NCBI RefSeq assembly: GCF_000768315.1
Contig: NZ_AQQX01000007.1
Coordinates: 62,001 to 126,000 of the forward strand
Length of the DNA stretch: 64,000 nt
Direction of reading: 5' to 3'
DNA from: Pseudooceanicola atlanticus
Lineage (GTDB): Bacteria; Pseudomonadota; Alphaproteobacteria; Rhodobacterales; Rhodobacteraceae
Under the pieces are notes generated by a model. That model made no database searches, had not been told where the DNA came from, and saw only the letters and a program-made list of their open reading frames with translations. A program made the translations under genes and the position numbers. How positions within the stretch are numbered: the stretch's first letter is position 1; every line of letters begins with the position of its first letter. Below are positions 39,603-55,954 of the stretch, one piece after another.

Positions 39603-39913
39603 AGATCACGTGAGAGATACTCGCGGGCATATTTTTCAACATGCGAGCAGGATTCGTGCCTGACGTTGCAAAGATGTAGACAGGTCAATCTGCCTGTTTG
39701 CACAAGCATTCAGCGCAATTTTCTTGGATTTACCCAGAGTTACCCGCTGGATCGGCAAACTGTTGACAGTTTGCTGTTTCCGCACTTAGCCTGAACGCAT
39801 CGGGCGGTGCTCCGCGAGGATGCACCGGCCGCAACAAAAAGACCGTGCCCTGGGACAGTCCCCGTTTCCGGGCGCAGCGGACAAGTGATCGAAAAACCGT
39901 AGGGAGACCCTTT
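39603..39913. other. Intergenic region before the ABC binding-protein gene
   Basis: No gene is visible in these 311 bases. They hold a GntR-type operator (39755-39774) and, upstream, a nested inverted repeat: TGCAAA...ACAGG-tcaatctg-CCTGT...TTGCA at about 39667-39708. The rest is leader of the binding-protein mRNA ending in AGGGAGACCC. Confidence 0.7.
39755..39774. promoter_or_regulatory. GntR-type operator, copy 1, over -35 box
   Basis: GCAAACTGTTGACAGTTTGC is a 9-2-9 perfect inverted repeat around TG. The hexamer TTGACA (39763-39768) is a consensus -35; TAGCCT 18 bases later is a candidate -10. It controls the binding-protein gene at 39914 by occlusion (inference). Confidence 0.8.
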
Positions 39914-41422
39914 ATGACCTATTTCCACCGTTTCCGGACGACCTTCGGGTCTGCCCTCGTGGCAGCCTCGCTGGCCGTGGCCGGGCCTGCCGCCATGGCG
40001 CAGGAGGGGCCGGAAGAACTGACCATCGCGCTGTCGGGTGACTTCCCGTCGCTGGACCCCAGCAAGGACACCGCACCGATCGCGCTGAACTATCGCCTGA
40101 ATGTCTTCGAGGCGCTGACGCAGATCGGCAAGGACGGTTCCGTCCTGCCGCGCGCCGCTGAATCCTGGGAGCATTCCGACGACCTGCTGACCTGGACCTT
40201 CAAACTGCGCGAAGGCATGCTGTTTCACAACGGCGAAGAGGTCGAGGCCGAAGACGTCGTCTGGACCGTCGAGCGCATCCTCGCGGACGACAAGACGCCC
40301 GTCCGCAACTTCCTCAAGCTGGTGGAAAGCGTCGAGGCGCTGGACAAGTACACCGTCCAGTTCACGGTGTCGCAGCCCTATGCGATCTTCGACCGTCAGA
40401 CCAAGTACACCTACATCATGAGCAAGGACTACTGGGAAGAGGTTGGTGACGAAGGCTATGCCACCGCGCCGATCGGTTCGGGTCCCTACAAGATGGTCGA
40501 GTGGATCAAGGACGACCGGATGGTCCTGGAACAGTTCGAGGATCACTACGGTGAGAAATCCTCGGTCAAGAAGGCGACATTCCGTCCGATCCCGTCCGAG
40601 GCCGGTCGTGCAAACGCGCTGCTGTCGGGCGAAATTGACATCGTGCCGGAGCTGCCGCCGTCGCTGATGCCGATGCTGGAAGGCCAGGAAGGCCTGACCG
40701 TCGAAGCGGCACCGGGCTTCCGCGTGGCTTACCTGGCCATGGACCCGACCCAGCCGCCCTTCGATGATCCGATGGTCCGCGAAGCCGTGGATATTGCCAT
40801 CGACCGCAACGCCATCGCCGACCGCCTGATGCGCGGCTCTGCCAAGGCAAGCGGTGTGATGATCCCGCCGGGCAACGAAGGCTACGAACCCGTTTTCGAT
40901 CCTGTTGAATACGATCCCGAGCGTGCCGCGCAGCTGATCGCCGATTCTGGCTACGACGGCGAGGAAATCTCGATCGACTATCCCAACAACAACGTTGCGA
41001 TGGCGAACGAGCAGGCCCAGGCCATTGCCGGCTACCTGACCGAGGCGGGTCTGAATGTCACGCTGAATTCGCTGGAATTCACCGCGTTCTTCCCGCTCTG
41101 GATCCAGAACCAGCTGGACAAGATGCACTTCTTCGCCTTTGGGTCTTCGCAGTTCCACGCGGAAACCGTTCTGGCCTCGATCTTCGAGGAAGGCGCACAC
41201 AACTACCGCGCCGATCCTGAAATGAGCGCCCTGATCAAGGAACAGCGCCAGGAGGCCGACCCCGAGCGCCAGCAGGAACTGATCACCGAGGCGTTCCGCC
41301 TGGGCAACGCGGATCGTCAGTACATCCCGCTGTGGGACCTCTACATCGTCTACGGCGCCAAGACCGAAGTGGGCTACGAGCCCTATACCGACGGCATCGT
41401 CCGGCTCTACGCCTTCGACTGA
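39914..41422 (+). CDS. Peptide/nickel-type ABC transporter substrate-binding protein
   Basis: This 502-residue family 5 binding protein has a signal peptide (about 1-30, ending AMAQ), then ALSGDFPSLDPSKDTAPIALNYRLNVFEAL, EDVVWTVERIL, and the C-terminal PLWDLYIVYGAK. It binds the pathway substrate in the periplasm. Its permeases and ATPase are 14.6 kb away at 56055-59871 and share the same operator, which strongly suggests one transporter. The ATG at 39914 follows AGGGAGACCC. Confidence 0.94.
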   Translation: MTYFHRFRTTFGSALVAASLAVAGPAAMAQEGPEELTIALSGDFPSLDPSKDTAPIALNYRLNVFEALTQIGKDGSVLPRAAESWEHSDDLLTWTFKLREGMLFHNGEEVEAEDVVWTVERILADDKTPVRNFLKLVESVEALDKYTVQFTVSQPYAIFDRQTKYTYIMSKDYWEEVGDEGYATAPIGSGPYKMVEWIKDDRMVLEQFEDHYGEKSSVKKATFRPIPSEAGRANALLSGEIDIVPELPPSLMPMLEGQEGLTVEAAPGFRVAYLAMDPTQPPFDDPMVREAVDIAIDRNAIADRLMRGSAKASGVMIPPGNEGYEPVFDPVEYDPERAAQLIADSGYDGEEISIDYPNNNVAMANEQAQAIAGYLTEAGLNVTLNSLEFTAFFPLWIQNQLDKMHFFAFGSSQFHAETVLASIFEEGAHNYRADPEMSALIKEQRQEADPERQQELITEAFRLGNADRQYIPLWDLYIVYGAKTEVGYEPYTDGIVRLYAFD

Positions 41423-41432
41423 GCCGAACCTG

Positions 41433-41465
41433 TCGGGGCGTGCTGCGGCGCGCCCCGATTTTTTT
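41433..41465 (+). terminator. Rho-independent terminator after binding-protein gene
   Basis: An 11-bp stem TCGGGGCGTGC / GCGCGCCCCGA (loop TGCG, one T-G pair) followed by seven T. The next gene starts 56 bases later, so it may be expressed by partial read-through. Confidence 0.9.
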
Positions 41466-41520
41466 GACCCTCCCAATTTAACGAATGTTCACCCGGCGCG
41501 GTCCGGGCAGGAGTGACCCC

Positions 41521-42699
41521 ATGAGCGCATCCTCTGACCCCATTCTGATCGCCGGCGCCGGTATCGGCGGATTGTGTGCCGCTCTGGCTTTGCTGCGGGC
41601 GGGTCAGGATGTCCGCGTTCTGGAGCAGGCGCCGGAACTGGGCGAGGTCGGGGCCGGGCTGACCGTGCAGCCGAGCGCGACCCGGGCGGTCGACTTCCTG
41701 GGGCTGGGGGACGACCTGCGAGAGGTCGCAGATATGTCGGGTCAGCCCTATATCTTTCACTACCGTACCGGCGAACAGATCGGAGAGATCACCGGCGTCG
41801 GGAAGGTTACCGATGAGAACGGTGTCAGCTGGTATCACCGCATCCACCGGGCCGATTTCCACGCCATGTTGGTCGATGCGATCCGCGCCCTGTCACCCGG
41901 TGCGATCCGCCTCAACGCGCGCGTTGCGGGGGTGGAACAGGACGAGATCGGGGTTAGTGTCACGCTTGAAAATGGCGAGGTCCTGAAGGGACGCGCGCTG
42001 ATCGGGGCGGACGGGTCACGCTCGACCGTGCGAAACTGCCTGTTCGACACTCCGATGCCTCAGTTCCGCGGGCAGGTGGCCTATCGCAGCCTGATCCCAA
42101 TGGAACGTGTGGCCCATCTGCTGGAGGATCACCCGGCTGGCACCTATGTGGGACCCGGAGCGATCTTCAATCGTTATCCCGTGCGGCAGGGCAAATTGCT
42201 GAACTGCATCGGGATTGTGGAAACCGCTGCCTGGACTGAAGAGGGCTGGGCTTGTCCGGCCACCCGCGCGGAATTCCTGGAGAAGTTCGCGGGCTGGCAC
42301 GAAAGCCTGACGGGCCTGATCCGCGAGGCGCCGGAAGAGGGTCTGTTCAAATGGGCGCTTTATGACCGCGAACCGTTGGCGGAATGGACCAAGGGCCGAA
42401 TCACGCTTCTAGGCGACGCGGCCCATCCGATCCTGCCGTTCCTTGGGCTGGCCGGTGCCATGGCTGTCGAGGATGGCGTCGTTCTGGGACGCGCCATTGC
42501 CGCGACGCCGGATGATCTGCCCGGTGCGTTTGCCCGGTATGAGGCCGCCCGCAAACCGCGAACCGACGACATCTTCGAGAAGTCGAGAGAGCAGGGACGT
42601 ATCTTCCAGGACCCGGATACGGATGGCTTCGCCAGCAAGAAGCGGCCCCATTCGGACAAGACCCTGTTCGCATATGATCCGGCGACCGTGGCGATCTGA
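41521..42699 (+). CDS. FAD-dependent monooxygenase, salicylate/hydroxynicotinate hydroxylase-like
   Basis: This 392-residue group A flavin hydroxylase has the FAD motif AGAGIGGLCAALALLRAGQ, the FAD/NADPH motif IGADGSRSTVR, and the ribityl motif LLGDAAHPILPFLGLAGAMAVEDG. Closest well-known types are salicylate 1-hydroxylase, 3-hydroxybenzoate 6-hydroxylase and 6-hydroxynicotinate 3-monooxygenase; which it is cannot be told. It would insert one oxygen into an aromatic or heteroaromatic ring with NAD(P)H. It follows the binding-protein gene and ends at a bidirectional terminator. Confidence 0.9.
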   Translation: MSASSDPILIAGAGIGGLCAALALLRAGQDVRVLEQAPELGEVGAGLTVQPSATRAVDFLGLGDDLREVADMSGQPYIFHYRTGEQIGEITGVGKVTDENGVSWYHRIHRADFHAMLVDAIRALSPGAIRLNARVAGVEQDEIGVSVTLENGEVLKGRALIGADGSRSTVRNCLFDTPMPQFRGQVAYRSLIPMERVAHLLEDHPAGTYVGPGAIFNRYPVRQGKLLNCIGIVETAAWTEEGWACPATRAEFLEKFAGWHESLTGLIREAPEEGLFKWALYDREPLAEWTKGRITLLGDAAHPILPFLGLAGAMAVEDGVVLGRAIAATPDDLPGAFARYEAARKPRTDDIFEKSREQGRIFQDPDTDGFASKKRPHSDKTLFAYDPATVAI

Positions 42700-42759: not shown

Positions 42760-42774
42760 CTTTTTCGGTGACAC

Positions 42775-44373
42775 TCAATGATCGTCGCGCAACTCGAAGA
42801 GGTTCCCGGGGCTCATGATGCCATCCGGATCATGCAAGGCCTTCAACTGGCGCAGGAGCGTCTGAACCTCGGGCTGTCGGGTCTCGAAATAGGGGTATTT
42901 CTGACCGATCTGCACGTGCACGCCCCCAAGGTCCTTCCAATCGGCGAGGATCTCGTTCGAGAGGCGTTTGAGGACTGCGCGGGCTGCGGGATTGTCGTCG
43001 CGCCGTTTCAACGCGGCCTGTTCCGCGTCCGACATGAAATGCAGATGCAGGGGCAGCGGAGCATCCGGCCAACGGATCAGCGTTTCCACCCCGACAGCCG
43101 TTGGGCCATGGGTTGACAACAGGTAGCCATGGGCGATGCCATGCTGTTTCAGTTCGTCCTTCATGCGGGTGAAGACAGCCTCGGTCCGAGTGAAGGCCTC
43201 ACCGCCACGAGAGTTCGGCACTACCGTATGCAACCAGGCCATGCGTTTTCCCGAGGGCGTCAGCAGGCTATTCATTGGCGGGAAAGGGATTTTCCGCATG
43301 ACCCGCGGGACGGAGGCAGGCACGGCGCGGCCCCCGGCATCCTTCGCGATCTGGCGGACGCGTTTGATCTTGCGGTTCGCCTCGTGTCGATCCTGCCCCT
43401 CGACGATGGTGTTCATCAGGTAGCCGATCTTGTTGGCAAACCGACGGCCTGACAGGCCGATCAGGGCGGCATCCCGCAGGCCGTGGGTCAGGCTGTTTGC
43501 TTCCGTCACCACCTGGCCGATGGTCTTGAGATCGGACAGGAACCCCTGGCTGGCCATACGGGTGCGGGCCGTGAACGGGTCGATACCGCTGCATTCACTG
43601 GCCAGAAGCTCTGCCCCGATCTGCGCCATGGCGCCCATCTGTGCGGCCGGGTCGTCGAATGAGAAGGAGGCATAAGCCTCTTCCTTCGCGGTCGGGATCA
43701 ATTGCAGCGTGATCGCGGTCTTGATGCCGAAGGCACCGCAATCGCCCAGGAACATCCCGGTCAGGTCAGGGCCGTAATTGCGGAAGAAGGGGCTGGCGCG
43801 CCCAGTGGCCGAGGCCGATCCGGTGGTCAGAATCTCGGCCCGGCCTGTGACGACCCGCAGGCCAAGGACGGATTCCGCGGACCCGCCGCGCGATGCGGAG
43901 CCATAGAACTTTGCCCCTTGCGAGACAGAGCCACCGATGGTGGCGTGAAGTCCCGAAAACGTACCCCAGAAGGGCGTGGTCATGCCGTGCGGGCGCAGGG
44001 CGTCGCGCAGGGCAGACCATGTCACGCCGGGTTGCACGGTGACGAAGCGATCCGTCAGGTTCAGCTCGATGATCTCGGTCATGGCCGACAGGTCGACCAG
44101 CAGGCTGTGATCGTTCTTGGCCAGGTACCCGGCGGAATAGGACAACCCTCCGCCACGCATGTTCAGGCTGAAACCCAGTTCGCGCGCGGCCTGAACCAGC
44201 TTGACGACATCTGTTTCATCCCAAGGCCGCACCAACGCGGCGGGAAGGTGTTCTGCCCCGTAATAGACATCCGTTCCATACAGGGACAGATCGTCCGTGG
44301 TGATCGCCAGATTGGGCAGACGTGCGGTCAGGTCGTCGAGCGGCGCGGCAGAGCGGGGTTGGGCGGTCATCAT
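42775..44373 (-). CDS. FAD-linked oxidase (PCMH/VAO family)
   Basis: This 532-residue protein has the FAD-binding PCMH domain (SLNMRGGGLSYSAGYLAKNDHSLLVDLSAM; GTFSGLHATIGGSVSQGAKFYGSASRGGSAESVLGLRVV) and the family end LKALHDPDGIMSPGNLF. No signal peptide is seen. Members oxidise alcohols, hydroxy acids, lactones or lignan-type phenols. It is the last gene of a minus operon after the lyase and the hydantoinase, joined to the latter by a TGATG overlap. Confidence 0.88.
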   Translation of the reverse strand: MMTAQPRSAAPLDDLTARLPNLAITTDDLSLYGTDVYYGAEHLPAALVRPWDETDVVKLVQAARELGFSLNMRGGGLSYSAGYLAKNDHSLLVDLSAMTEIIELNLTDRFVTVQPGVTWSALRDALRPHGMTTPFWGTFSGLHATIGGSVSQGAKFYGSASRGGSAESVLGLRVVTGRAEILTTGSASATGRASPFFRNYGPDLTGMFLGDCGAFGIKTAITLQLIPTAKEEAYASFSFDDPAAQMGAMAQIGAELLASECSGIDPFTARTRMASQGFLSDLKTIGQVVTEANSLTHGLRDAALIGLSGRRFANKIGYLMNTIVEGQDRHEANRKIKRVRQIAKDAGGRAVPASVPRVMRKIPFPPMNSLLTPSGKRMAWLHTVVPNSRGGEAFTRTEAVFTRMKDELKQHGIAHGYLLSTHGPTAVGVETLIRWPDAPLPLHLHFMSDAEQAALKRRDDNPAARAVLKRLSNEILADWKDLGGVHVQIGQKYPYFETRQPEVQTLLRQLKALHDPDGIMSPGNLFELRDDH

Positions 44374-45761
44374 CAGGCCGACAGCGACCGGCGCTGGTAG
44401 CGGCCATGCCCATCGGAGCCCTCTACGATGACCCCGTCACGGAACACCGCGCGTCCACGGACCAGCGTGTCGGTCACCTTGCCGCGCATCGTCCAGCCTT
44501 CGTAGATCGAATAACCGGCATCGCTGAGCAGGCTGTCCTGGGTCACTTCGTATTCCGCGTCTAGATCGAGGATCGCGATATCAGCGTCGAAGCCGGGCCG
44601 GATCGCGCCCTTGCGCCCCCAGAGCCCCATGGACTTCGCCGGGACCTCGCACAGCATGGACACGATCCGGTTGAGAGGTACGCCGCGCTTGTGGTGGCCT
44701 TCGGTCAGCATGACAGGAAGGATCGTCTCGAGACCCGGGCAGCCGGGGGATGCTTTCCAGATGCCGCCATCCTTGCCAGCGATGGTGCGGTGCACGTGGT
44801 CGCTGGCAATGGTATCGACATGGCCGTCGATGATCGCCTGCCACAGTGCGTCACAATCTTCCTTTTCGCGCAGTGGCGGGTTGATCTTGCCGACGGTGCC
44901 CCGCTCCCAGGTGACGTCATGTGTCAGGTAGTGGGGGCAGGTCTCGATGGTGATGTCGACACCCTGCTGGCGTGCGGCCAGGGCGGCGTCGAAGGCCTCA
45001 CCCGAAGAGGTGTGCACGACGTAGATCGGGGACCCGGCGGATTTACAGAGCCGCGAGGCGCGCTGGATCGCATCGGCTTCGACAAAGGGCGGACGGGTCG
45101 CATTCCAGGTCGCCAGGCCGCCTTTGCCCTCGGGGTCGTCCTTCATCACCTTTTCGCGCAGGTAATGGGCGACTTCGATGCTTTCAGGGTGGGGGCAGAC
45201 CATGCCCCCATTGGCCGCGCAGGCCTCGGCCAGTCGGAAGAGGTAGGCGTCGTCGATATCCGGCAGGCCAAGTCGTTTGCCTTCGCCGTTTCGGTTGTTC
45301 ATGAAAATCTTGAAGCTGGGCACGCCGTAGTCCGAGACGTATTTCGGCACGTTGGCCAGCTGATCCTCGGTCGAGATGATCAGGTGGTAGCCGAAATCGA
45401 CGCGGGCGCCGGCCTCGGTCGTGGCGACGACATCGTCGAAGATGGTCGAAAGTTCCTCGGCGGCGAGCAGATAGGCGATGAACGTGGTCACGCCACCACT
45501 GGCAGCCGCCGCGGTTTCGCTGGCCGCATCAGATGCAGCGCGGGGGCGCGAGATGTCATTGCCGTGGCCAAGGTGCACATGAACGTCCAGCGCGCCGGGC
45601 ATGACGGTCTTGCCGCCCGCATCCAGCGTTTCCTTTGCTTCGACGGCGGTGCCGGGCTCCATCACCGCTGCGATCTTCCCGTCCTTGACGGCGATGTCGA
45701 GCGGGGCAGGGTCGTTGCCCGGCGTGATGACCAGGCCATTGATGATGAGAAGATCAAACAT
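44373..45761 (-). CDS. D-hydantoinase/dihydropyrimidinase-like cyclic amidohydrolase
   Basis: This 462-residue metal-dependent amidohydrolase has DVHVHLGHG (first metal His pair), PSFKIFMNN where the Lys is the carbamylated bridge, MVCPHPES, YVVHTSSGEAFD, and DTIASDHVHRT with the final metal Asp. It would open a cyclic amide, imide or hydantoin ring. Length and motifs match dihydropyrimidinase/hydantoinase. It follows the lyase gene by 44 bases in the operon. Confidence 0.9.
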   Translation of the reverse strand: MFDLLIINGLVITPGNDPAPLDIAVKDGKIAAVMEPGTAVEAKETLDAGGKTVMPGALDVHVHLGHGNDISRPRAASDAASETAAAASGGVTTFIAYLLAAEELSTIFDDVVATTEAGARVDFGYHLIISTEDQLANVPKYVSDYGVPSFKIFMNNRNGEGKRLGLPDIDDAYLFRLAEACAANGGMVCPHPESIEVAHYLREKVMKDDPEGKGGLATWNATRPPFVEADAIQRASRLCKSAGSPIYVVHTSSGEAFDAALAARQQGVDITIETCPHYLTHDVTWERGTVGKINPPLREKEDCDALWQAIIDGHVDTIASDHVHRTIAGKDGGIWKASPGCPGLETILPVMLTEGHHKRGVPLNRIVSMLCEVPAKSMGLWGRKGAIRPGFDADIAILDLDAEYEVTQDSLLSDAGYSIYEGWTMRGKVTDTLVRGRAVFRDGVIVEGSDGHGRYQRRSLSA

Positions 45762-45805: not shown

Positions 45806-46669
45806 TCAGGCGTACCGTTTTTCCAGCGCGTCATGGGCGTCCTTGCGGACAGAGTTCTGGCGTTCCTCGAAGCTGGCCAACTGGTCACGGACGCTTTCCA
45901 GCGATCCGGTTTCCTTGAGCGTGCCAAGGACGTCGGTGACAGAGCGCAGTGCGGCCTGCAGGGCGGCATTGGCAAAAAGCGCTGCGCCGAAATTCATCTG
46001 CTTCAGGTCATCGTGGCTCTGCGCCGGCGTTTTGCCGCCGAAGACATAATTGAAAATCTGCGGCACGGGCAGTTCAGAGGCAATGCGGGCCAGATCTTCG
46101 CGCGTCTCGGGGGCCTCGACAAAGGTGACGTCGGCGCCTGCCTCGATGAACTTGTGCGCGCGCTCGAGAGCCTCTTCGATACCGTGCACCGCAATTGCAT
46201 CGGTGCGGGCAACGATCTGGAAGTCATCATCCTGCCGCGCATCGGCGGCGGCGCGGATCTTCTGCAGCATCTCATCTGTCGACACCACGGCCTTGCCTGC
46301 GAAGTGACCGCATTTCTTGGGGAAAACCTGATCTTCCAGTTGGATACCGGATGCGCCGGCGCGTTCATAGCTGCGCACGGTGCGGCCCACGTTGATCGCG
46401 TTGCCGAAGCCCGTATCGCCGTCCACCAGCAGCGGAATGTCGATTGCATCCGAAATTGCAGAGATATGGTCCGTCATCTCGGACATGGTGATCAGGCCAA
46501 CATCGGGCGCGCCGAGATACATGTTGGTGACGCCTGCGCCCGAGATGTAGGCGCATTCATATCCAAGGTTTTCAATGACATTCGCGAACAGGGCATTGGG
46601 CGTGCCGGGCATGAGCGCGGCATCGCGTCTGGCGAAAATGGTTTTAAGTCGTGCGGCTTTCGTCGTCAC
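45806..46669 (-). CDS. Isocitrate lyase/PEP mutase superfamily lyase
   Basis: This 287-residue TIM barrel has LLVDGDTGFGNAINV (metal site) and the catalytic loop KKCGHF, whose Cys marks C-C lyases such as methylisocitrate lyase and 2,3-dimethylmalate lyase rather than PEP mutases. It would split a substituted malate into pyruvate/glyoxylate and a carboxylic acid. The start is GTG at 46669 with AAGGAGAC before it. First gene of its operon, divergent from the tandem hydrolase. Confidence 0.88.
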   Translation of the reverse strand: MTTKAARLKTIFARRDAALMPGTPNALFANVIENLGYECAYISGAGVTNMYLGAPDVGLITMSEMTDHISAISDAIDIPLLVDGDTGFGNAINVGRTVRSYERAGASGIQLEDQVFPKKCGHFAGKAVVSTDEMLQKIRAAADARQDDDFQIVARTDAIAVHGIEEALERAHKFIEAGADVTFVEAPETREDLARIASELPVPQIFNYVFGGKTPAQSHDDLKQMNFGAALFANAALQAALRSVTDVLGTLKETGSLESVRDQLASFEERQNSVRKDAHDALEKRYA

Positions 46670-46751: not shown

Positions 46752-46767
46752 AAACTGTCAACAGTTA
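46752..46767. promoter_or_regulatory. GntR-type operator, copy 2, divergent promoter
   Basis: AAACTGT-CA-ACAGTTA matches the regulon palindrome at 15 of 16 symmetrical positions. On the minus strand it contains TTGACA as a -35 for the lyase operon; on the plus strand TATAAA at 46766 is a candidate -10 for the hydrolase operon. Confidence 0.78.
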
Positions 46768-46807: not shown

Positions 46808-48436
46808 ATGACTGAAACTATGGCGCAGACCAAGTCCGACAATACCGGGGTCCGCAAGGGGTTTGTCGAAGCTGGCGGTGGTCTGCTGCATTACGTGCGG
46901 TGCGGGCAGGGGCCTGCGGTCGTGATGCTTCATGCCAGCCCGTGTTCGGCCAAGGTCATGGCGCCGATCCAGGCCGCCTGGTCCGGCGAGTTCACGACAT
47001 TTGCCTTCGACCTGCCAGGTTTCGGAATGTCCGACCTGCCGCAGGCGGATGACATCACGATCGAACTTCTGGCCGACGTGATCGCCGAGGGGATGGACGC
47101 GCTCGGGATCAGCCAGGCGGCCCTCTATGGGCGGCATACCGGAGCCAGCGTTTGCCTGGCGCTGGCCCTGCAGCGACCCGACCTGGTGTCCATGATGCTG
47201 ACCGATGGTCTGCCTGTTTTCGCGACGCCCTATTCCGAGGATCGCCTGAAGAAATACCTTAAGCCGATTACCCCGTCTGGCGATGGCATGCACCTGCCAT
47301 GGACCTTCTTCCGCTACCGGGACCAGCATATGTTCTGGCCTTGGGATGCTGCGGATATCGACCATCGTTCGGATGCAGACCTGCCCGACGAACACTTCCT
47401 TCACCGTGGCGCGGTCGAGATGCTGGAGGCGGCCGAGACATATGTGCCGGTCTACAAATCGGCTTTTCTCTACGACACTCTATCCCGCATCGGCGGCGTG
47501 TCCTGTCCGGCTTATTACGGCAATCGCCCGGGCGACAGCCAGTTCAAGACCATCCAGCATTACCCCGAAACGGCGGACATTCGTGTCATGCCGCGTGATC
47601 CCGCCGAAGCCGAATTGGCGGAGCTGGAATTGATCCGAAAGCATCCGGCAGAAGGTGCCGTGCCGGACTGGACGAGCCGGATCGGCACGGGTGGTGACAA
47701 TCGGGATTACATCGCGACACGGCATGGGGTTGTCTATGCGATCGGAGCCAATCTGGGGGCCGAAGGGCTACCTCAACTGCTTCTCCCTGACATGCCGGGC
47801 GGCATCGACCTGCATAAGGCGCAAATCATAGCGGCATCGGAGACACGTCCCGTCATCGCGGTCGATCCCGGTGGGGTCGGTAACTCCGATATCGACGGGG
47901 TGGCAACTGTCGACAGGTGGTGCGAGCAGATTGACGACATCTTGAAGCATTTGGGTTGGGACCGGGTCGAGGTCATCGCAAATGGTCTGTCCGGTGCCCT
48001 CGCCTCAGAGTTCGCGGAAAGGGCTGGCGACCGTGTCGACAGCTTGCTGCTGCGCTCGCCTGCCTTGCTGAACGAAGAGGAGCGTGCGGGGTTCATCGCG
48101 AACCCTGCGCCTGAGGCGACGCCCCGCGCCGATGGCGGACATTTGCTGCCCGTTTGGCACCACCTGCGCGACCAGGAATTGTGGTGGCCTTGGTTCGACA
48201 CGTCGCACGAGGCCGTCCGCACCAACCCGCCGCGGATTTCCGCCGCCACGCTGAACAAGCGCGCGGTCGCCATGTTGAAACAGGCACACCATTATCGACC
48301 CGTCTGGGCCGAGCTGATCAGCCGGGACGTCGCCGCGCAGATCGCTGCATTGCCGCAGCCTGTCCGCATCGAAACCGATCCGTCCGACATCTTCCACATC
48401 CCTGCGGCGCGAAACCTCACGGCCGCCGCGGCCTGA
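46808..48436 (+). CDS. Tandem alpha/beta-hydrolase-fold protein, atypical nucleophile elbows
   Basis: This 542-residue protein has two alpha/beta hydrolase halves, about 1-285 and 295-540. The first has VVMLHASPCSAK (oxyanion region), FDLPGFGMSDLP and the elbow GRHTG at 108-112, with His110 where the Ser/Asp/Cys nucleophile belongs. The second keeps DPGGVGNSD but its elbow reads ANGLSGAL (391-398), with Gly393 at the nucleophile site and Ser395 two residues on. GxHTG proteins occur as a minor branch of the family with unclear chemistry. It heads the plus operon hydrolase-ligase-hydratase-amidohydrolase. Real function unknown. Confidence 0.8.
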   Translation: MTETMAQTKSDNTGVRKGFVEAGGGLLHYVRCGQGPAVVMLHASPCSAKVMAPIQAAWSGEFTTFAFDLPGFGMSDLPQADDITIELLADVIAEGMDALGISQAALYGRHTGASVCLALALQRPDLVSMMLTDGLPVFATPYSEDRLKKYLKPITPSGDGMHLPWTFFRYRDQHMFWPWDAADIDHRSDADLPDEHFLHRGAVEMLEAAETYVPVYKSAFLYDTLSRIGGVSCPAYYGNRPGDSQFKTIQHYPETADIRVMPRDPAEAELAELELIRKHPAEGAVPDWTSRIGTGGDNRDYIATRHGVVYAIGANLGAEGLPQLLLPDMPGGIDLHKAQIIAASETRPVIAVDPGGVGNSDIDGVATVDRWCEQIDDILKHLGWDRVEVIANGLSGALASEFAERAGDRVDSLLLRSPALLNEEERAGFIANPAPEATPRADGGHLLPVWHHLRDQELWWPWFDTSHEAVRTNPPRISAATLNKRAVAMLKQAHHYRPVWAELISRDVAAQIAALPQPVRIETDPSDIFHIPAARNLTAAAA

Positions 48437-48464: not shown

Positions 48465-49847
48465 ATGTCCACTGCCCCGACCGATTACACGCTGCCCGAC
48501 ATCCTGTACCAGCCATGGGAGGACGTCGAAGCGCTGCAGGATCGCCTGCTGAAGCAAATGGTCGAGATCTGCTATGATCATCACCCGTACTATTCCCGCG
48601 TGATGAAGGAACTGGGGCTGACCCCCGCGGATATCCAGAACCGCGAGGACCTGAAGAAGCTGCCGGTCATCGGCAAGAAGGAATTCCTGGCAGAGCCGGA
48701 GAACTTTCGCCTCGATCCGGATGGGCTGCCGATGCAGGAGGCGACTCTCTGGAAGATCATCTACACCACCGGCACGACGTCGGGCCGGCCTGCGCCCATC
48801 TTCGTCACCGCGCATGATTACTTCGCTTACCAGGACCTCTTCCGTACCCGCGGGAGCCTGCTGGGGATCAATGACACGGACATGATCGCCAACCTCTTCC
48901 CGATGACCAACTTCCCGCTTGGTGCGTTTTCCCGGGCACCGGACGAGGCGGCGGCCATGGGCGCGTCGATCATGTTCGGCCTGACCGGCCGCGTCGACAG
49001 CCCTTACCCGGTGAACCGCAGCGTCGATGAAGCAGTCGAAGCCGTGGCGCGTCATGGGGCAACCGTGCTTTGGGGCGTAGCGGGATTCGTCCGGCGCGTA
49101 TTGCTGCGCGCGATCGAGATGAAGTCCGACTTCACCAAGGTGCGCATGGTCGTCACCACGGGCGAGGCATCTTCCCCAGCCATGCGTGAGGACCTGCGGA
49201 CCCGGATGCGCAGCCTTGGTTGTGCCGACACGCTGATCGTGAACCGGTATGGCTCGACCGAGCAGGGGGGCACGATGATCGAATGCCAGGACGGGTCGGG
49301 CTTCCACAGTTCGATGCCCGACCAGGTCTTCCACGAGATCGTGGATGACGAGACAGGCGAGCGGCTGGGCGATGGCGAGGCCGGAATGCTGGCCATCACC
49401 CATCTTAACCGCCGCGGCACCGTCTTCCTGCGGTACAAGATCGGGGACATGGGGGAACTGGATCACAGCCCTTGCCCACATTGCGGCCGGACCACCGTGC
49501 GCCTTTCGTCGAAACCCGTGCGGACCGGCGACATCATCAAGATCAAGGGCGCGCTGGTGAACCTTGGCAACCTGAAGTCGGAACTCGACAAGGTCGACGG
49601 GCTCGAGGAATACCAGATCGTCGTGTCCTCCGAGGACCTGTCCGACCCGTTTTCGCCTGACGTGCTCAAAGTCCGTATCTCGGCCCGCGAAGGGTCGGTC
49701 GCCGAGATGCCGGACACCGTTTCGGGTATCGTCACAAAGCTGTCGAACCTGCGTCCGAAGATCGAGGAAGCCAAGCGGGACGAGATCTTCGATCCCACGA
49801 CCATGGCAAAGCCCAAGCGTATCGTCGACGAGCGGAAACCGCGTTGA
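48465..49847 (+). CDS. PaaK-like AMP-forming CoA ligase
   Basis: This 460-residue adenylate-forming enzyme is of the phenylacetate-CoA ligase type, shorter than acyl-CoA ligases: YYSRVMKELGLTPADI near the N-terminus, P-loop IYTTGTTSGRPAPIFVT, RYGSTEQGGTM, YKIGDMGELDHSPCPHCGRT with a CxxC pair, and RTGDIIKIKGALVNLGNLK. It would activate an aryl, heteroaryl or short acid, feeding the next gene, an enoyl-CoA hydratase. Confidence 0.88.
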   Translation: MSTAPTDYTLPDILYQPWEDVEALQDRLLKQMVEICYDHHPYYSRVMKELGLTPADIQNREDLKKLPVIGKKEFLAEPENFRLDPDGLPMQEATLWKIIYTTGTTSGRPAPIFVTAHDYFAYQDLFRTRGSLLGINDTDMIANLFPMTNFPLGAFSRAPDEAAAMGASIMFGLTGRVDSPYPVNRSVDEAVEAVARHGATVLWGVAGFVRRVLLRAIEMKSDFTKVRMVVTTGEASSPAMREDLRTRMRSLGCADTLIVNRYGSTEQGGTMIECQDGSGFHSSMPDQVFHEIVDDETGERLGDGEAGMLAITHLNRRGTVFLRYKIGDMGELDHSPCPHCGRTTVRLSSKPVRTGDIIKIKGALVNLGNLKSELDKVDGLEEYQIVVSSEDLSDPFSPDVLKVRISAREGSVAEMPDTVSGIVTKLSNLRPKIEEAKRDEIFDPTTMAKPKRIVDERKPR

Positions 49848-49851: not shown

Positions 49852-50583
49852 ATGAGCGACCCGTTCTTTCTTGACCAGACCGGCCCGGTCGCGCGGATCA
49901 CCATCGCGCGGCCAGAGCGGCGCAATGCGCTGACGCCCGCCGAATTGCACGGACTGGCTGATATCCTGGACCGTCTGGACCGGGATGAGGACGTGCGTGT
50001 CGTCGTCCTGACTGGGCAGGGGGAAAGGGCGTTCTGCGCAGGTCTGAACCTGAAGGCAGAGGAAGAAATCGCGGCGGAAATGTCGGGTTCGGGCCCGACC
50101 GGTTTAGGCGCGGTTCTGCGCCGTGCTCAGTCCATGTCGAAGCCGTTGATCGGGCGGATCAATGGGGCCTGTGTTGCCGGCGGTGTCGGGCTTCTGTCTG
50201 CCTGCGATCTGGCCTTGGCCGGTGCGGATGCGGTCTTTGCCCTGCCGGAGGTCGAGGTCGAGGTCGGGCTCTATCCCTTCGTGGTAATCGAAGGACTGCG
50301 CGGGCGGGTCTCTGATGGGGTGCTCGCCGGGCTCGCAGGCACGGCGCGCAAGGTGACTGCGGCGGAAGCGGTGACTTTGGGGCTGATTGCCCAGGCGGTT
50401 CCGCGGGATGAGCTGGACGCTGCGACAGAGCAGGTGGCGCAACGCACGCTGCAAATCCCGGACGGCCAGGCCAGTGCCCTGCGTACAGCCTATGCCCCGC
50501 ACATGAAGGATTTCACGGCCCGGATCGACGCGGCAGAGACCCGGACCCGGGCCTATCGCCAGGCGAAACTGGCCCAAGGATGA
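49852..50583 (+). CDS. Enoyl-CoA hydratase/isomerase family protein
   Basis: This 243-residue crotonase has GERAFCAGLNLKAE and INGACVAGGVGLLSACDLALAGADAVFALPEVEVEVGLYPFVV. The Glu-rich segment EVEVEVGL covers the second catalytic acid region. It follows the ligase by 4 bases and probably acts on the CoA ester it makes or a later intermediate. Confidence 0.9.
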   Translation: MSDPFFLDQTGPVARITIARPERRNALTPAELHGLADILDRLDRDEDVRVVVLTGQGERAFCAGLNLKAEEEIAAEMSGSGPTGLGAVLRRAQSMSKPLIGRINGACVAGGVGLLSACDLALAGADAVFALPEVEVEVGLYPFVVIEGLRGRVSDGVLAGLAGTARKVTAAEAVTLGLIAQAVPRDELDAATEQVAQRTLQIPDGQASALRTAYAPHMKDFTARIDAAETRTRAYRQAKLAQG

Positions 50584-50631: not shown

Positions 50632-51528
50632 GTGAGCGATTACAAGTTCGATGCCAGCAAGACGAAGGATGGCTATGGCGCCGTCGACATCGTCGTGAAC
50701 TACTACACACCTGAAATCGTTGCCGAAGGGCGCATTCCCACGGACGACAATTTCCGCAACAAGGTGCGGATGAAGGATGACCCGCGCAACGGGACTACGG
50801 CCGAGCAATATATCGAGAAGATGGATCGCGCTGGTATCGAACGGTCGCTGCTGATTGCCACGCGGTGTGGTGACCGTCGGATGCAGGGATCGAAGGAAAT
50901 TCCCTACGAATACATCTACGAGGCCTGCAAGAAGTACCCGCACCGGTTCTCGGGCCTAGCCGGGATCGACCCGACCCGTGGCATTGCCGGGCTGAAGGAA
51001 CTGGACAAGGCCGTGCACGAATATGGGTTCGTCGGCGCGCACCTCTATCCGCACTGGTTCGGTCAGGCGCCTGATGCGGCGATCTACTATCCCTATTACG
51101 CTCGCTGCGCGGAGTTGGGGATCCCGATCATGATGCAGGTGGGGCACTGCCTCGTCTATCAGAAGGATTTCCGACTGCCGAGCGTCGGTCGTCCGATCAC
51201 GCTGGACCGCATCGCCATCGACTTCCCGGAGCTGACGATCATCGGCATCCACCTGGGCTATCCCTGGACGGAAGAGATGATTTCTGTCTGCACAAAGCAT
51301 GAAAACGTCTACATGGCCGGCGATGCCTATGCGCCCAAGCATTGGGGGCAGAGCGCGACCCACTACGCGAACACCTACGGGCAGGACAAGTTCATGTTCG
51401 GAACGGATTGGTGGGTGATTGACCCGGAACGCGCGGTGCAGGAGGTCGATGAGCTTGATTTTCGTCCCGCTTCGCGCCGCAAGATCATGCGTGACAATGC
51501 GATGAAGGTGTTCAATCTGCCGGAATGA
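50632..51528 (+). CDS. Amidohydrolase_2 family protein with incomplete metal site
   Basis: This 298-residue TIM-barrel protein resembles ACMSD-type decarboxylases/hydrolases: HRFSGLAGIDPTRGIAGLKELDKAV, GFVGAHLYPHW, IMMQVGHCLVY, TIIGIHLGYPW and FMFGTDWW with the metal Asp. The N-terminal HxH metal motif is absent: the strand after the start reads AVDIVVNYYTPE. So the metal site, if any, is altered. GTG start at 50632 with GGAAGAGAGAG upstream. Last gene of the plus operon. Confidence 0.82.
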   Translation: MSDYKFDASKTKDGYGAVDIVVNYYTPEIVAEGRIPTDDNFRNKVRMKDDPRNGTTAEQYIEKMDRAGIERSLLIATRCGDRRMQGSKEIPYEYIYEACKKYPHRFSGLAGIDPTRGIAGLKELDKAVHEYGFVGAHLYPHWFGQAPDAAIYYPYYARCAELGIPIMMQVGHCLVYQKDFRLPSVGRPITLDRIAIDFPELTIIGIHLGYPWTEEMISVCTKHENVYMAGDAYAPKHWGQSATHYANTYGQDKFMFGTDWWVIDPERAVQEVDELDFRPASRRKIMRDNAMKVFNLPE

Positions 51529-51582: not shown

Positions 51583-51598
51583 AAACTGTTGGCCAATG
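51583..51598. promoter_or_regulatory. GntR-type operator half-site, copy 3
   Basis: AAACTGTTG keeps the left arm and centre; the right arm (GCCAATG) is lost. It lies 71 bases before gntR, which suggests weak autoregulation. Confidence 0.4.
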
Positions 51599-51653: not shown

Positions 51654-52337
51654 TTGAGCAATATCAAGCCGATCGTCGGTGCATCGCTGAGTTCCGAAGC
51701 CTTCGAGAAAGTCGTCGAGGCGATCACCTCGGGCGAGTTCGAGCTGGGGCAGCGTCTGTCCGAAGCCGAACTGGCCCGTCGCCTCGGCATCAGCCGGGGC
51801 CCCCTGCGCGAGGCGCTCGGCCGTTTAGAAGGCCGCCTTGTACGTCGAACGCCGCGCATCGGTGTCCACGTGATCGAATTCTCCCGCGATGACCTTGAGG
51901 CCCTTTTCCTGACCCGTGAGGCGTTGGAGGGCATGGCCGCACGACTGGCCTGCGAACGCATCAGCACGAAGGAGCTGAAAAACCTCAGCGCGCTTCTTGA
52001 GGATCACGCCAATCAGCCGGAGATCGCATCGGGCGAGAGCTATGCGCCGCGTACGCGCGACGAGGATTTCCATTTCTCGATTATCAGGGCGGCGGAATGC
52101 GACCGGATCGAACGGTTGCTGATGGACGAGATCTATTACCAGCTTCGAATCCAGCGGCGCAAATCTTCGTCCCAACCGGGGCGTGCCAAGGCGGCGTTGA
52201 AAGAGCATCAGCTGATTGTCGCCGCGCTGGAAAGCCGTGACCCGGACGAGGCGGAAAAGTCCATGCGCACCCATCTACGCAATGCCCGGATCAGTGCCAT
52301 GTCCGCCTGGGAGGCAGACGAGGCCGAGGCGAGCTGA
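51654..52337 (+). CDS. GntR family regulator, FCD subfamily
   Basis: This 227-residue protein has the GntR winged helix LGQRLSEAELARRLGISRGPLREALGRLEGRLV (about residues 30-62) and an all-helical FCD effector domain with the metal-binding pattern RDEDFHFSIIRAAE and HLRNARI. TTG at 51654 is the start, with AGGGGAGAG upstream. FCD proteins usually repress in the absence of an organic acid. It is the only regulator gene within the set of operons that share the AAACTGTTGACAGTTT operator, hence the likely regulator of all. Confidence 0.92.
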   Translation: MSNIKPIVGASLSSEAFEKVVEAITSGEFELGQRLSEAELARRLGISRGPLREALGRLEGRLVRRTPRIGVHVIEFSRDDLEALFLTREALEGMAARLACERISTKELKNLSALLEDHANQPEIASGESYAPRTRDEDFHFSIIRAAECDRIERLLMDEIYYQLRIQRRKSSSQPGRAKAALKEHQLIVAALESRDPDEAEKSMRTHLRNARISAMSAWEADEAEAS

Positions 52338-52357: not shown

Positions 52358-52375
52358 AAAACTGTTGACAGTTTT
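52358..52375. promoter_or_regulatory. GntR-type operator, copy 4, over -35 box
   Basis: AAAACTGTTGACAGTTTT is a perfect 8-2-8 repeat. TTGACA (52365-52370) and TTGAAT (52388-52393), 17 bases apart, make a good promoter for the amidohydrolase at 52448. Confidence 0.82.
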
Positions 52376-52447
52376 GCCTTGGGTGGCTTGAATGCCACCC
52401 AAGGCGCGGGTTTGTCGCGCGGTATCACGTGAAGGAAAGGGCTCTCC

Positions 52448-53134
52448 ATGGCTGGTGAAATCTGGGACAACGTCATCCCCGACGAGGAAAAGAAGGCCTA
52501 TGAGGCTGCGGGCTTCGGCGAGGCCTCGGGTATGGGATCGAATCCGGCCCTTCTGATCATCGACGTGCAGTACCGTACCGTCGGGACGGAGCCCAAACCG
52601 TTCTGGGAGTCGATCAAGGAATTTCCAACCTCCTGCGGCGATGTGGGCTGGAACGCTGTGGCGAACATCAAGAAGCTGCTGGGCACCTTCCGGGAAAACG
52701 ACTGGCCGGTGATCTATCCCTATGTGGCACCGAAGGAATCCTTCGATACCGGCCGACTTGCGGCGAAAGTTCCGGCGCTGATGGGCGTGTCGGCCAAGGG
52801 TTATGAATTCGTGCCGGATTGCGCCCCGCAGGACGGTGATATCCTTCTGCCCAAGCGCCACCCGAGCGCCTTTTTCGGCACGCCGCTGGTCAGCTACCTG
52901 GTAGAGCGTGGCATCGACACGCTGGTGGTGACCGGTTGCACGACCAGCGGCTGTGTCCGAGGCAGTGTCGTCGACGGTTTCGCCTACAATTATCGCTGCG
53001 TCGTTCCTCAGGATGCGGTCTATGACAGGTCCGAGACCTCGCACCTGGTCAACCTGTTCGACATGAACGCGAAATACGCGGACGTCATGCCGACTGACGA
53101 GGTTGTGAAGGGGCTCTCGGCCATCAAGAGCTGA
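52448..53134 (+). CDS. Isochorismatase-family cysteine amidohydrolase
   Basis: This 228-residue protein has the complete Asp-Lys-Cys triad of N-carbamoylsarcosine amidase/nicotinamidase-type enzymes: Asp39 (LIIDVQ), Lys136 (LPKRHPSAFFGT) and Cys169 (TGCTTSGCVRGS). It would hydrolyse an amide or N-carbamoyl product, releasing ammonia. N-carbamoylsarcosine amidase and maleamate amidase are the closest types. Monocistronic, with its own operator and a bidirectional terminator after it. Confidence 0.9.
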   Translation: MAGEIWDNVIPDEEKKAYEAAGFGEASGMGSNPALLIIDVQYRTVGTEPKPFWESIKEFPTSCGDVGWNAVANIKKLLGTFRENDWPVIYPYVAPKESFDTGRLAAKVPALMGVSAKGYEFVPDCAPQDGDILLPKRHPSAFFGTPLVSYLVERGIDTLVVTGCTTSGCVRGSVVDGFAYNYRCVVPQDAVYDRSETSHLVNLFDMNAKYADVMPTDEVVKGLSAIKS

Positions 53135-53171
53135 CGCCTTGGCGCCGGTCTCGGCGCATGGAGGCATGAAA

Positions 53172-53201
53172 AAAGGCCCGGTGGGACGCCACCGGGCCTT
53201 T
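53172..53201. terminator. Bidirectional terminator
   Basis: A perfect 13-bp stem AAAGGCCCGGTGG / CCACCGGGCCTTT with loop GACG, A run before it, between convergent genes ending at 53134 and 53219. Confidence 0.9.
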
Positions 53202-53218
53202 CGCGTTTCCGGCCTGGC

Positions 53219-54721
53219 TCAGAGGGGCGCCGCGACCGTCTTGGTTTCCAGGTAGGCGTTGAAAACATCCTCGCCTTTCTCCCGACCCCAGCCGGATTGG
53301 CGGAATCCGCCGAAGGGCAGGGCGCTGTCGCCTACGAAATGCCGGTTGATCCCGATGGTCCCGGCACGCAGGCGGGCGGCCATCTTGTGGGCATGGCTCA
53401 CATCGCGGGTAAAGATGCTGGCCGCGAGGCCATAGGCGCTGTCGTTCGCCTGTTTGGCGATCGAGTCCAGGTCGTCGTCGTTGAAGCGCAGAACGGACAG
53501 GACCGGGCCGAATACCTCATCGCGGGCAATGGTCGAGTCTTGTACGAGGTCGGCCAGAACGGTCGGGCGGTAGAAATAGCCGTCGCCCTCGATCCCTTCG
53601 CCGCCGGTTACCACGGACGCGCCTTCGCGGATCGCCGTTTCGGTCATGCGCGCCACGCGTTCGCGGTGATCAGAGGTGATGAGCGGGCCCATCTGCGTCT
53701 CTGCGTCGAAGCCGTAGCCGACTTTCAAAGCGTCAGCTGCCGATGCGACACCGTCCACGACTTTGTCGAAGACCTTTTCGTGCACATACATCCGCGATCC
53801 GGCAGTACAAATCTGACCTGCACCAGAGAAGATCCCGGCCGACAAGGCGGGCAACGCGATGTCCAGATCGGCATCAGGCAGGACGATCATCGGGCTCTTG
53901 CCGCCAAGTTCCAGCGTCACCCTTTTCAGGTTGCTGTCCGCTGCTGCCTTGGCGATGGCCCGGCCGACGCCGGTGGAGCCGGTGAAGGCAATCTTGTCGA
54001 TGTCTGGGTGGGAGGACATGGCCGCGCCGACCTCCGCCCCGCCCAGAACGACGTTGAAGACGCCTTCGGGGATCCCCGCCTCGAGCGCGAGTTCAGCGAG
54101 GAAGAGCGCTGTCAGAGGTGTCTGCTCGGCCGGTTTCAGGACGATGGTACAGCCTGCGGCCAAGGCCGGGGCGACCTTCCAGATGGCCATCATCAGCGGC
54201 CCGTTCCACGGGACGATCTGCGCCACGACGCCAACCGGATCGCGTAGGGTATAGGCGTGCCATTCGCCGGGCGAGGATACGGGCACCGTCTTGCCCGTCA
54301 GCTTGGTCGGCCAGCCAGCCATGTAGCGCAGCATGTCCACCGAACCGGCCACGTGGGCCATGCGGATGGCGCCGATCGGCAGGCCGATATTAAGCGTTTC
54401 GAGTTCGGTGAAGGTCTCGGAATGCTGTTCCAGAAGGTCAGCGAATTTCCAGATGACCTTGGTGCGCTCGTTGGGCTTCATGTTGCGCCAGGGGCCTGCC
54501 TCGAAGGCGGTACGGGCGGCGGCGACCGCAGCGTCGACATCGGCGGCGCTGCCCTGCGGAACTTCGGCCACGGTGGTGCCGCGGCCCGGGTCCCGGACGG
54601 TCGTCGATGCGCCGGAGGTGCCTGGCGTCATCTTGCCGCCGACGAAGTGGCCGAGGCTGCGCTTCAGAAAGGCCCGGGTATCGTCACCCAGGCTGGGCGA
54701 CGGGGGTGTCGCGATATTCAT
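53219..54721 (-). CDS. NAD(P)-dependent aldehyde dehydrogenase
   Basis: This 500-residue ALDH has FTGSTGVGRAIAKAA, the catalytic Glu in VTLELGGKSP and the catalytic Cys in SGAGQICTAGSRM, and ends FGGFRQSGWGREKGEDVFNAYLETKTV. It oxidises an aldehyde to the acid. It follows the alcohol dehydrogenase by 10 bases, so the pair would convert a primary alcohol to an acid in two steps. Confidence 0.95.
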   Translation of the reverse strand: MNIATPPSPSLGDDTRAFLKRSLGHFVGGKMTPGTSGASTTVRDPGRGTTVAEVPQGSAADVDAAVAAARTAFEAGPWRNMKPNERTKVIWKFADLLEQHSETFTELETLNIGLPIGAIRMAHVAGSVDMLRYMAGWPTKLTGKTVPVSSPGEWHAYTLRDPVGVVAQIVPWNGPLMMAIWKVAPALAAGCTIVLKPAEQTPLTALFLAELALEAGIPEGVFNVVLGGAEVGAAMSSHPDIDKIAFTGSTGVGRAIAKAAADSNLKRVTLELGGKSPMIVLPDADLDIALPALSAGIFSGAGQICTAGSRMYVHEKVFDKVVDGVASAADALKVGYGFDAETQMGPLITSDHRERVARMTETAIREGASVVTGGEGIEGDGYFYRPTVLADLVQDSTIARDEVFGPVLSVLRFNDDDLDSIAKQANDSAYGLAASIFTRDVSHAHKMAARLRAGTIGINRHFVGDSALPFGGFRQSGWGREKGEDVFNAYLETKTVAAPL

Positions 54722-54731
54722 TGGGGTCTCC

Positions 54732-55817
54732 TTACAGGCGGAAATCGATCAGCTGACGCACTGGTGCGCCGCTTTTCAGGTTTGCGAAGGCTTCGTTGAT
54801 CTCGGACAGGTCGATCCGGCTAGAGATCAGGTGGTCGAGGTCGAGGCGCCCCTGTTGGTAGAAGTTCAGCAGGTTCGGAATATCGACGCGGAACCGGTTG
54901 GACCCCATGGAAGAACCTTGTATTTTCCGGTCCTTGATGAAGAACGACGCCTCAAGCTCAAGCTTCTCTCCGGGTTTGAACATGCCGAGGATCGTTGCGG
55001 TCCCGCCCATACGGAGCATCGCGAAGGCCTGTTCGGCCGTGGGCTTGAGGCCAAGCGCCTCGAAGGAATATTGCACCCCGCCATCAGTCATCTCGATCAC
55101 CTTGGCGACCGGGTCTTCCTTGCCAGCATTGATGACATCCGTAGCGCCGAGCGTCTTGGCAAGCTCAAGCTTGCTGTCCAGCATGTCGACAGCGATGATC
55201 CGGCCAGCGCCTGCGATCCGGGCGCCGCTGATGACCGACAGCCCCACGCCGCCACAACCGATCACGACAACTGTCGCGCCGGGTTCGACCTCGGCCGCGT
55301 GGATGACCGCACCAACACCCGTCAACACGCCGCAACCGACCAAAGCCGCGCGGTCCAGCGGGATTTCCGGGTCGATCTTCACCACGGCGTTCTCGTGTAC
55401 CAGCATCTGCTCGGCAAAGGCCGACAGGCTGGAGGATTGGTGCAGCACCTCGCCGTTCAGCGAATAGCGGCGGGCAGCGCCCCAGGGCAGCTTGATATCC
55501 GTCGACTCGCAGAGGTTCGGGTGGCCGGTGACGCATTGCGAACAGGTACCGCAGAATACGGAAAGACAGCCGACGACATGATCGCCGGGTTTGACGTAGG
55601 TAACGTCTTCGCCAACCGCTTCGACGATGCCCGAGGCCTCGTGGCCAGGGATGTAGGGCAGGGGATGCGGGTAGGTGCCGTCGTGAATATGCAGGTCTGA
55701 ATGACAGATGCCGGCATAGGCCGTGTTAACAAGAACCTCCCGGTTTTTCGGTTTGAAGACGGTGACATCCTCGATGGTGATCGGGTCTCCGTGCTTCCAG
55801 ACAACGGCTGCTTTCAT
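54732..55817 (-). CDS. Zinc-dependent alcohol dehydrogenase
   Basis: This 361-residue MDR protein has catalytic zinc ligands in GICHSDLH and GHEASGIVEAVGE, the structural zinc cysteines in CGTCSQCVTGHPNLC, and the cofactor motif IGCGGVGLSVISGARIAGA. It resembles class III/aryl-type ADHs. The start MKAAVVW at 55817 has GAAGGAAAC before it; the frame is open to 55898. It shares a divergent promoter region and operator with the ABC permease operon. Confidence 0.93.
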   Translation of the reverse strand: MKAAVVWKHGDPITIEDVTVFKPKNREVLVNTAYAGICHSDLHIHDGTYPHPLPYIPGHEASGIVEAVGEDVTYVKPGDHVVGCLSVFCGTCSQCVTGHPNLCESTDIKLPWGAARRYSLNGEVLHQSSSLSAFAEQMLVHENAVVKIDPEIPLDRAALVGCGVLTGVGAVIHAAEVEPGATVVVIGCGGVGLSVISGARIAGAGRIIAVDMLDSKLELAKTLGATDVINAGKEDPVAKVIEMTDGGVQYSFEALGLKPTAEQAFAMLRMGGTATILGMFKPGEKLELEASFFIKDRKIQGSSMGSNRFRVDIPNLLNFYQQGRLDLDHLISSRIDLSEINEAFANLKSGAPVRQLIDFRL

Positions 55818-55938
55818 CTTGTTTCCTTCGATTGGTTGACGCTTCGAACCCACGACGCGCGGCGTCGCTTGGCCGGTAGCGACTAGGTTTTGAGCCATAT
55901 CGCTTGAAACGAAGCCTAGAGTGCGATGCTCGGTATGT

Positions 55939-55954
55939 CTACTGTTGACAGTTT
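55939..55954. promoter_or_regulatory. GntR-type operator, copy 5, divergent promoter
   Basis: CTACTGTTGACAGTTT matches 14 of 16 bases. TTGACA (55945-55950) and TAGCCT (55968-55973), 17 bases apart, form a plus-strand promoter for the ABC permeases; the same TAGCCT follows copy 1. Position between divergent operons suits control of the ADH-ALDH pair too. Confidence 0.78.

Follow-up and report, generated by a model that had tools for sequence, protein, structure and literature searches.

Candidate operators of a probable GntR/FCD repressor in a catabolic island of Pseudooceanicola atlanticus, and their relation to PrpR/PmiR

GntR regulators of the FadR subfamily bind palindromic operators in which GT and AC lie two to three bases apart; in the part of PMC4494728 drawn on here, three bases separate them in most groups of the subfamily, and two in PrpR, UxuR and some others. 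The PrpR of Pseudomonas aeruginosa is described, in the section of PMC9765439 used here, as a repressor whose deletion leads to derepression, and its predicted operator is given as ATTGTCGACAAT; a band shift is reported as well. A GntR-type PrpR is also predicted in Shewanella, according to an excerpt of PMC3223726.

Here, we consider a window of 64,000 nucleotides (the whole stretch of DNA that was analysed) from Pseudooceanicola atlanticus, in which a regulator is encoded at 51654 within a catabolic island. Its domains, a GntR winged helix (PF00392, 50.2 bits) and FCD (PF07729, 86.1 bits), both exceed the cut-offs and place it among the GntR regulators of the FadR subfamily (FCD). Its nearest solved protein by sequence is 7xp0 (E 1.5e-42), and a fold search with a model of the regulator (mean pLDDT 83.7) gave as its top two 7xp1 and 7xp0, titled PmiR of P. 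aeruginosa; PrpR/PmiR (PA0797), the GntR-type repressor of the 2-methylcitrate operon, is its nearest solved kin on both counts. The operator form of the subfamily is also present, as ACTGT-TG-ACAGT with GT and AC two bases apart. The features of the island are given below, with putative operators numbered and transcripts inferred from gene adjacency.

39757..39772, plus strand: operator 1, before the SBP/FAD monooxygenase operon and also between tetR and the SBP gene
39763-39768 and 39787-39792, plus strand: -35 TTGACA and candidate -10 TAGCCT at operator 1
39845-41422, plus strand: solute-binding protein (SBP) family 5, faced by operator 1
41485-42699, plus strand: FAD_binding_3 monooxygenase, faced by operator 1
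42775-44373, minus strand: FAD_binding_4 oxidase, operator 2 side with ICL1
44373-45761, minus strand: dihydropyrimidinase-like amidohydrolase, operator 2 side with ICL1
45806-46669, minus strand: ICL1, PrpB/isocitrate-lyase-type lyase, KKCGH at residue 118
46752..46767, minus strand: operator 2, divergent region between ICL1 and the alpha/beta hydrolase operon; TTGACA on the minus strand, 46756-46761
46808-48436, plus strand: alpha/beta hydrolase, other side of operator 2
48465-49847, plus strand: PaaK-like AMP-binding ligase, alpha/beta hydrolase side of operator 2
49852-50583, plus strand: enoyl-CoA hydratase family, same side
50632-51528, plus strand: Amidohydro_2, same side
51654..52337, plus strand: GntR/FCD regulator, 227 aa, TTG start, proposed binder of all operators
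52359..52374, plus strand: operator 3, before the isochorismatase gene; TTGACA 52365-52370
52448..53134, plus strand: isochorismatase-family hydrolase, faced by operator 3
53219-54721, minus strand: aldehyde dehydrogenase, faced by operator 4
54732-55898, minus strand: zinc alcohol dehydrogenase (ADH), faced by operator 4
55939..55954, plus strand: operator 4, divergent region between ADH and ABC permease
55945-55950 and 55968-55973, plus strand: TTGACA and candidate -10 TAGCCT at operator 4
56001-56972 and 56972-57802, plus strand: peptide-type ABC permeases, faced by operator 4
57799-59871, plus strand: fused ABC ATPase, faced by operator 4
59975-67131, minus strand: second-module genes, namely FAD_binding_2, a second PrpB-like lyase (KRCGH), a second isochorismatase, HyuA, HyuB and a tautomerase/SnoaL protein
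Window-equivalent 67236, divergent from the 59975-67131 genes: UTRA-type GntR, with LeuC/LeuD-like genes
Window-equivalent 70549, outside the window: operator 5, before PrpD-like / FAD_binding_2 / PrpD-like genes
Window-equivalent 77853, outside the window: operator 6, between TRAP DctPQM and a nitroreductase-methyltransferase gene

The palindromes of the window share a 7-2-7 layout, and all four lie between genes: AAACTGTTGACAGTTT stands at 39757-39772, where the flanks extend it to a 20-base palindrome from 39755, and again at 52359-52374, while AAACTGTCAACAGTTA occupies 46752-46767 and CTACTGTTGACAGTTT occupies 55939-55954. An earlier note on this DNA had counted five matching copies, always intergenic and with TTGACA at the centre of at least three. 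Four of these stand, with TTGACA on the plus strand at 39763, 52365 and 55945 and on the minus strand at 46756-46761; the half-site at 51583 was rejected, since its AAACTGT is followed by a right arm matching at 2 of 7 positions (read by hand), and the gntR leader of the closest relative, G277, has no palindrome common to both there. A further place at 47904, with three arm mismatches, was discarded because it lies inside a gene. The gntR gene is left with no convincing operator of its own in the window, which counts against the operator reading; transcription probably reaches it from the 46808 operon, with operator 2 at the promoter. Some more distant orthologs (L008, L010, L011 and L013) do have a site ahead of gntR.

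When up to three mismatches are allowed, 7 strand-wise matches to the 16-mer are found in the window (4 places, both strands considered), compared with a mean of 0.12 and a largest count of 2 in 100 dinucleotide shuffles. The genome-wide scan that the earlier note had proposed was run over 4,938,305 bases in 47 contigs and returned AAACTGTTGACAGTTT, with at most two mismatches, at 5 places, all within 31 kb of contig C45; these are the four window sites and window-equivalent 70549, just past the window end. Exactly three mismatches gave 10 places on other contigs and one on C45, at 139853 (window-equivalent 77853), which lies in the island, and comparison with relatives supports this weaker sixth copy as a putative site. 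Matches with up to three mismatches number 12 forward and 9 reverse, against 4 and 5 for the reversed-pattern control. A chance origin of the palindrome is rejected in view of the genome scan, the window shuffles and the ortholog palindrome count described below.

Among 295 family genomes, 9 (own included) match the regulator at E 1e-50 or better, and G277, which was not among the genomes defining the motif, is the sole close one, its GntR being 83% identical. G277 carries the island in reverse order, and no match to the FAD monooxygenase (41485-42699) was found in it. Its 5 places with at most two mismatches all lie on one 163-kb contig (reversed control, 1), at the promoters homologous to operators 1, 2, 3, 5 and 6; the homolog of operator 4 has a weaker copy, so that all six homologous promoters carry a site. 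When the six intergenic regions are aligned, the window and G277 agree at 91 of 96 bases within the sites, compared with 505 of 707 aligned bases outside the sites, where 272 further window bases are unaligned. Individually, operator 2 is identical at 16/16 bases and operators 1, 3 and 4 at 15/16 each, the G277 copy of operator 4 being the weaker match. Directly after operator 3, the window has a perfect 11 bp hairpin (52377-52404, CCTTGGGTGGC, loop TTGAAT), and none was seen in the aligned G277 promoter. The link is looser in the seven other family genomes, which hold 47-52% homologs: by our reading, no more than 10 of their 33 copies are found inside 20 kb from the regulator gene, and 27 copies of the reversed control occur there; this counts against the operator reading. 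Only 2 of 196 genomes of the order, own included, hold an ortholog at E 1e-60 or better, and close orthologs near the lineage of the window are thus rare. Plasmid records from Methylobacterium (3) and Roseivivax (1) carry relatives of the regulator with 61-64% identity, which suggests horizontal movement.

Ortholog loci were studied in detail for L003-L030, the first 28 of the best 79 loci. A count of perfect 6-2-6 palindromes, made without presupposing the motif, ranked the AACTGT family highest: 19 loci hold 23 copies of it, whereas no family exceeded 4 copies in five shuffles. Two other palindrome families above their shuffles were set aside. GTCAAC-N-GTTGAC has 12 copies in 8 loci, but 11 of them are AACTGT sites read in a shifted register. 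GAAGTG-N4-CACTTC has 8 copies, also in 8 loci; it coincides with no site, and its letters, in our reading, fit the coding of the lyase KKCGHF motif. In the 28 whole genomes, 27 of 34 copies with at most one arm mismatch fall in the GntR loci, although these make up 0.47 of 119.6 Mb; the reversed-pattern control gave 10 copies. Five of the seven outside copies were inspected (two in G127 were left out), and four adjoin catabolic homologs, i.e., lyase, PrpD, aconitase, dihydropyrimidinase or isochorismatase genes, the weakest case being G103, with an aconitase-family match only; the fifth adjoins none of the genes tested. Such copies far from the GntR loci are seen in L086 (1-6000) and L089 (1-10001), beside other dihydropyrimidinase/isochorismatase or lyase/PrpD-like genes, and the regulon may therefore extend to a second cluster there. 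Fifty-nine relatives, three of them with a 44-49% homolog, gave 16 copies against 26 of the reversed control. A site with at most two arm mismatches is present in 22 of the 28 loci and was found in none of the other 6, which counts against the operator reading. With up to three arm mismatches and L029 left out, 60 of 61 ortholog sites are intergenic according to a home-made gene caller, by which 88% of the DNA was called coding. As a comparative result, the link between the palindrome and the GntR at 51654 is strong.

For the promoter geometry, 67 sites, including those of G277, were oriented by TTGACA (or TTTACA), and a -10 element was sought over spacers of 10-29 bases. TA...T hexamers number 5 at each of the spacers 16, 17 and 18, and 0-2 at every other spacer in that range. 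Spacers 16-18 thus account for 15 of the 67 sites (1000 shuffles: mean 2.41, largest 10), one of the 15 hexamers coming from the operator 4 homolog (three arm mismatches), which was added by name; the limitation of the hexamer to 15 of 67 sites counts against the promoter reading. The patterns TA...T, TAG.CT, TAG[GC]CT and TA[GT]..T exceed all 1000 shuffles, T..[ACG].. and TTA... do not, and TAT..T is less clear (3 of 67 at 16-18, a count that 9 of 1000 shuffles attained, and 0 at 17-18). Scoring of 59 sites against TATAAT gave a mean best match of 2.64 versus 2.11, equalled in 0 of 2000 shuffles. TTGACA points toward the gene in 14 of 17 one-sided ortholog sites (two-sided binomial 0.013), and in 30 of 39 once unequal divergent gaps are added (0.001), the sites in both counts being not independent; in the window, it does so in 2 of 3. 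In the double-site divergons of L010 (9814/9908) and L003 (11711/11843), the TTGACA boxes point away from each other. The TTGACA within the palindrome thus appears to behave as a -35 box with sigma-70 geometry, in which case repression by exclusion is the simplest reading. Operator 5 counts against this, since its 24 bases from the start codon are too few for a -35 reading; it may act as a roadblock instead.

On this evidence, i.e., the operator set, its near-restriction to the island, its conservation with the regulator orthologs and its overlap with the -35 box, the palindromes are very probably operators of the GntR/FCD repressor encoded at 51654, and one switch seems to control uptake and breakdown of the island's compound. 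A GntR dimer would bind each 16-20 base palindrome, cover TTGACA and keep RNA polymerase off the promoter, repressing six promoter regions (four in the window, two beyond) and some 23 genes if adjacent genes share transcripts. By analogy with PrpR/PmiR, the repressor would be released when an inducer binds to the FCD domain; this inducer may be one of the pathway's hydroxy di- or tricarboxylates, close to the compound on which the PrpB-like lyase acts. The comparison bears out what had been claimed of a single GntR/FCD regulator with sites confined to the island, of TTGACA as a -35 box (TA...T peaking 16-18 bases downstream) and of sites before the uptake (SBP, ABC), monooxygenase, lyase, ligase and ADH/ALDH genes.

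It is unlikely that the GntR binds these sites mainly as an activator, or acts differently by promoter, although activators exist in this GntR class and operator 5 is without -35 geometry. At many sites, the -35 box falls within the operator, and the characterised kin, P. aeruginosa PrpR, represses, as stated in the part of PMC9765439 consulted. Binding by a different regulator, be it the TetR (38928-39602), the UTRA-type GntR (window-equivalent 67236) or a protein encoded in another part of the genome, is very improbable: operator 1 does lie between tetR and the SBP gene, but neither the TetR nor the UTRA-type GntR has a homolog (E 1e-20, half length) in L003-L038 and L083-L085, where the palindrome recurs, and the intergenic region of the UTRA regulator has a different conserved repeat and no such palindrome. 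That the repeats are mere strong sigma-70 -35 regions, as the consensus TTGACA at their centre might suggest, is scarcely credible, since conservation across genera extends to the symmetric arms on either side of TTGACA, and the rest of the genome contains hardly any copy of the 16-mer.

Repression by the GntR at 51654 would, contrary to the claim that the whole 40-60 kb island forms one unit, reach the genes as far as 59871, pass over 59975-70080 and set in again at 70549 and 77853. At up to four arm mismatches, 59001-70600 has no palindrome except 70549, which leaves the 59975-67131 genes, the UTRA-type GntR and the LeuC/LeuD-like genes without a site and separate from the operator-bearing island. 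Their intergenic region has a different repeat, CTGTATC...TAATACAG, common to G277. Judged from its sequence, the stretch from 59975-62822 onward to window-equivalent 70080 is a second, parallel module that has a UTRA-type GntR and a conserved repeat to itself. Farther on, the protein with nitroreductase-family and methyltransferase domains (window-equivalent 78044-79288; L001:16045-17289) recurs in related loci; at E 1e-10, it matches nothing in NCBIfam.

Across loci, the regulator is repeatedly accompanied by genes for ICL1, the isochorismatase and the dihydropyrimidinase-like protein, joined in many loci by two PrpD-like proteins, a FAD_binding_2 protein and TRAP genes. Among solved proteins, ICL1 is nearest to the petal death protein, the isochorismatase to 3ot4 and N-carbamoylsarcosine amidohydrolase, and the dihydropyrimidinase-like amidohydrolase to L-hydantoinase. 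We infer an order of ring opening, amide hydrolysis, desaturation, hydration and carbon-carbon cleavage; the substrate would be, as a guess, a cyclic imide, with a hydantoin or dihydropyrimidine possible instead. Imide opening followed by amide hydrolysis is described for fungal nicotinate breakdown, with other enzymes, in the portion of PMC9304392 used here, and a search of the open-licence literature for the pathway found nothing usable. It is a speculative and rather doubtful reading that a PrpR-type regulator was rewired for an undescribed cyclic-imide pathway, with the change from P to A/S/Q at residue 38 tracking that from T to C in the operator. The dihydropyrimidinase-like protein would then open the imide, the isochorismatase hydrolyse the half-amide, FAD_binding_2 desaturate the acid, a PrpD-like protein hydrate it and the PrpB-like lyase split the product, and the 59975-70080 module would repeat this logic with HyuAB, LeuCD-like proteins, the second lyase and another GntR. 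Alkylmaleimides from tetrapyrrole breakdown, e.g., hematinic acid, would fit; their cleavage products could be 2-oxoglutarate and propionate, with a hydroxy-tricarboxylate intermediate that would be similar to 2-methylisocitrate.

What was an unannotated catabolic island can now be treated as a defined candidate regulon whose operators are mapped, and which joins genes not linked by enzyme annotation alone (two kinds of transporter, amidohydrolases and PrpD-like proteins). The orthologs also form a natural series, with joint changes in a GntR regulator, in one residue that is a likely contact and in the operator; the inducer, once found, would point to the pathway substrate.

With FadR-subfamily regulators in general, the proposed system has in common an A/T-rich palindrome with GT/AC boxes; the majority has three bases between GT and AC, whereas the window operators have two (PMC4494728, in the part cited). 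Two bases also separate them in the operators of PrpR/PmiR, and regulators of the window type stay near a PrpB-type lyase in many loci. In the tree, which was midpoint-rooted and has flagged long branches, the window protein groups with five orthologs (100/99), apart from a 53-row clade (100/99) that is gammaproteobacterial except for L085, from the window's own class. This clade includes L033, where the regulator precedes prpB, prpC, acnD and prpF genes whose products exceed the NCBIfam cut-offs; identity to the gammaproteobacterial prp-type relatives is about 40-47% among the best 79 loci. At residue 38, the HTH carries A, S or Q in regulators whose operator arms have CTGT (C in 96 of 116 arms) and P in those with mostly TTGT (of 240 arms, T in 154, G in 53, C in 21, A in 12), with three loci with T and one with V outside this pattern. 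Few evolutionary events underlie the pattern, and residue 38 probably contacts the operator. D136, H140, H185 and H207, which we take to be the metal-site residues of the FCD domain, are invariant in 31 sequences. The PrpR/PmiR repressor is reportedly released by 2-methylisocitrate. In the open-licence literature, the operator letters occur in three papers among those listed, none of which concerns a bacterial regulator by its title. The regulator would appear to work like PrpR/PmiR, yet it is not filed as PrpR because two defining features fail: instead of the operator ATTGTCGACAAT, the arms here are ACTGT rather than the ATTGT of PrpR, with T at that place in prp-type relatives, and instead of a prpB-prpC-acnD/prpD-prpF operon, the island, without prpC-acnD-prpF, has PrpB-like and PrpD-like homologs only, below the PrpB cut-off. 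With these ACTGT arms and a different predicted regulon of amidohydrolase, transporter, PrpD-like and dehydrogenase genes, this kin of PrpR/PmiR would constitute a branch of its own.
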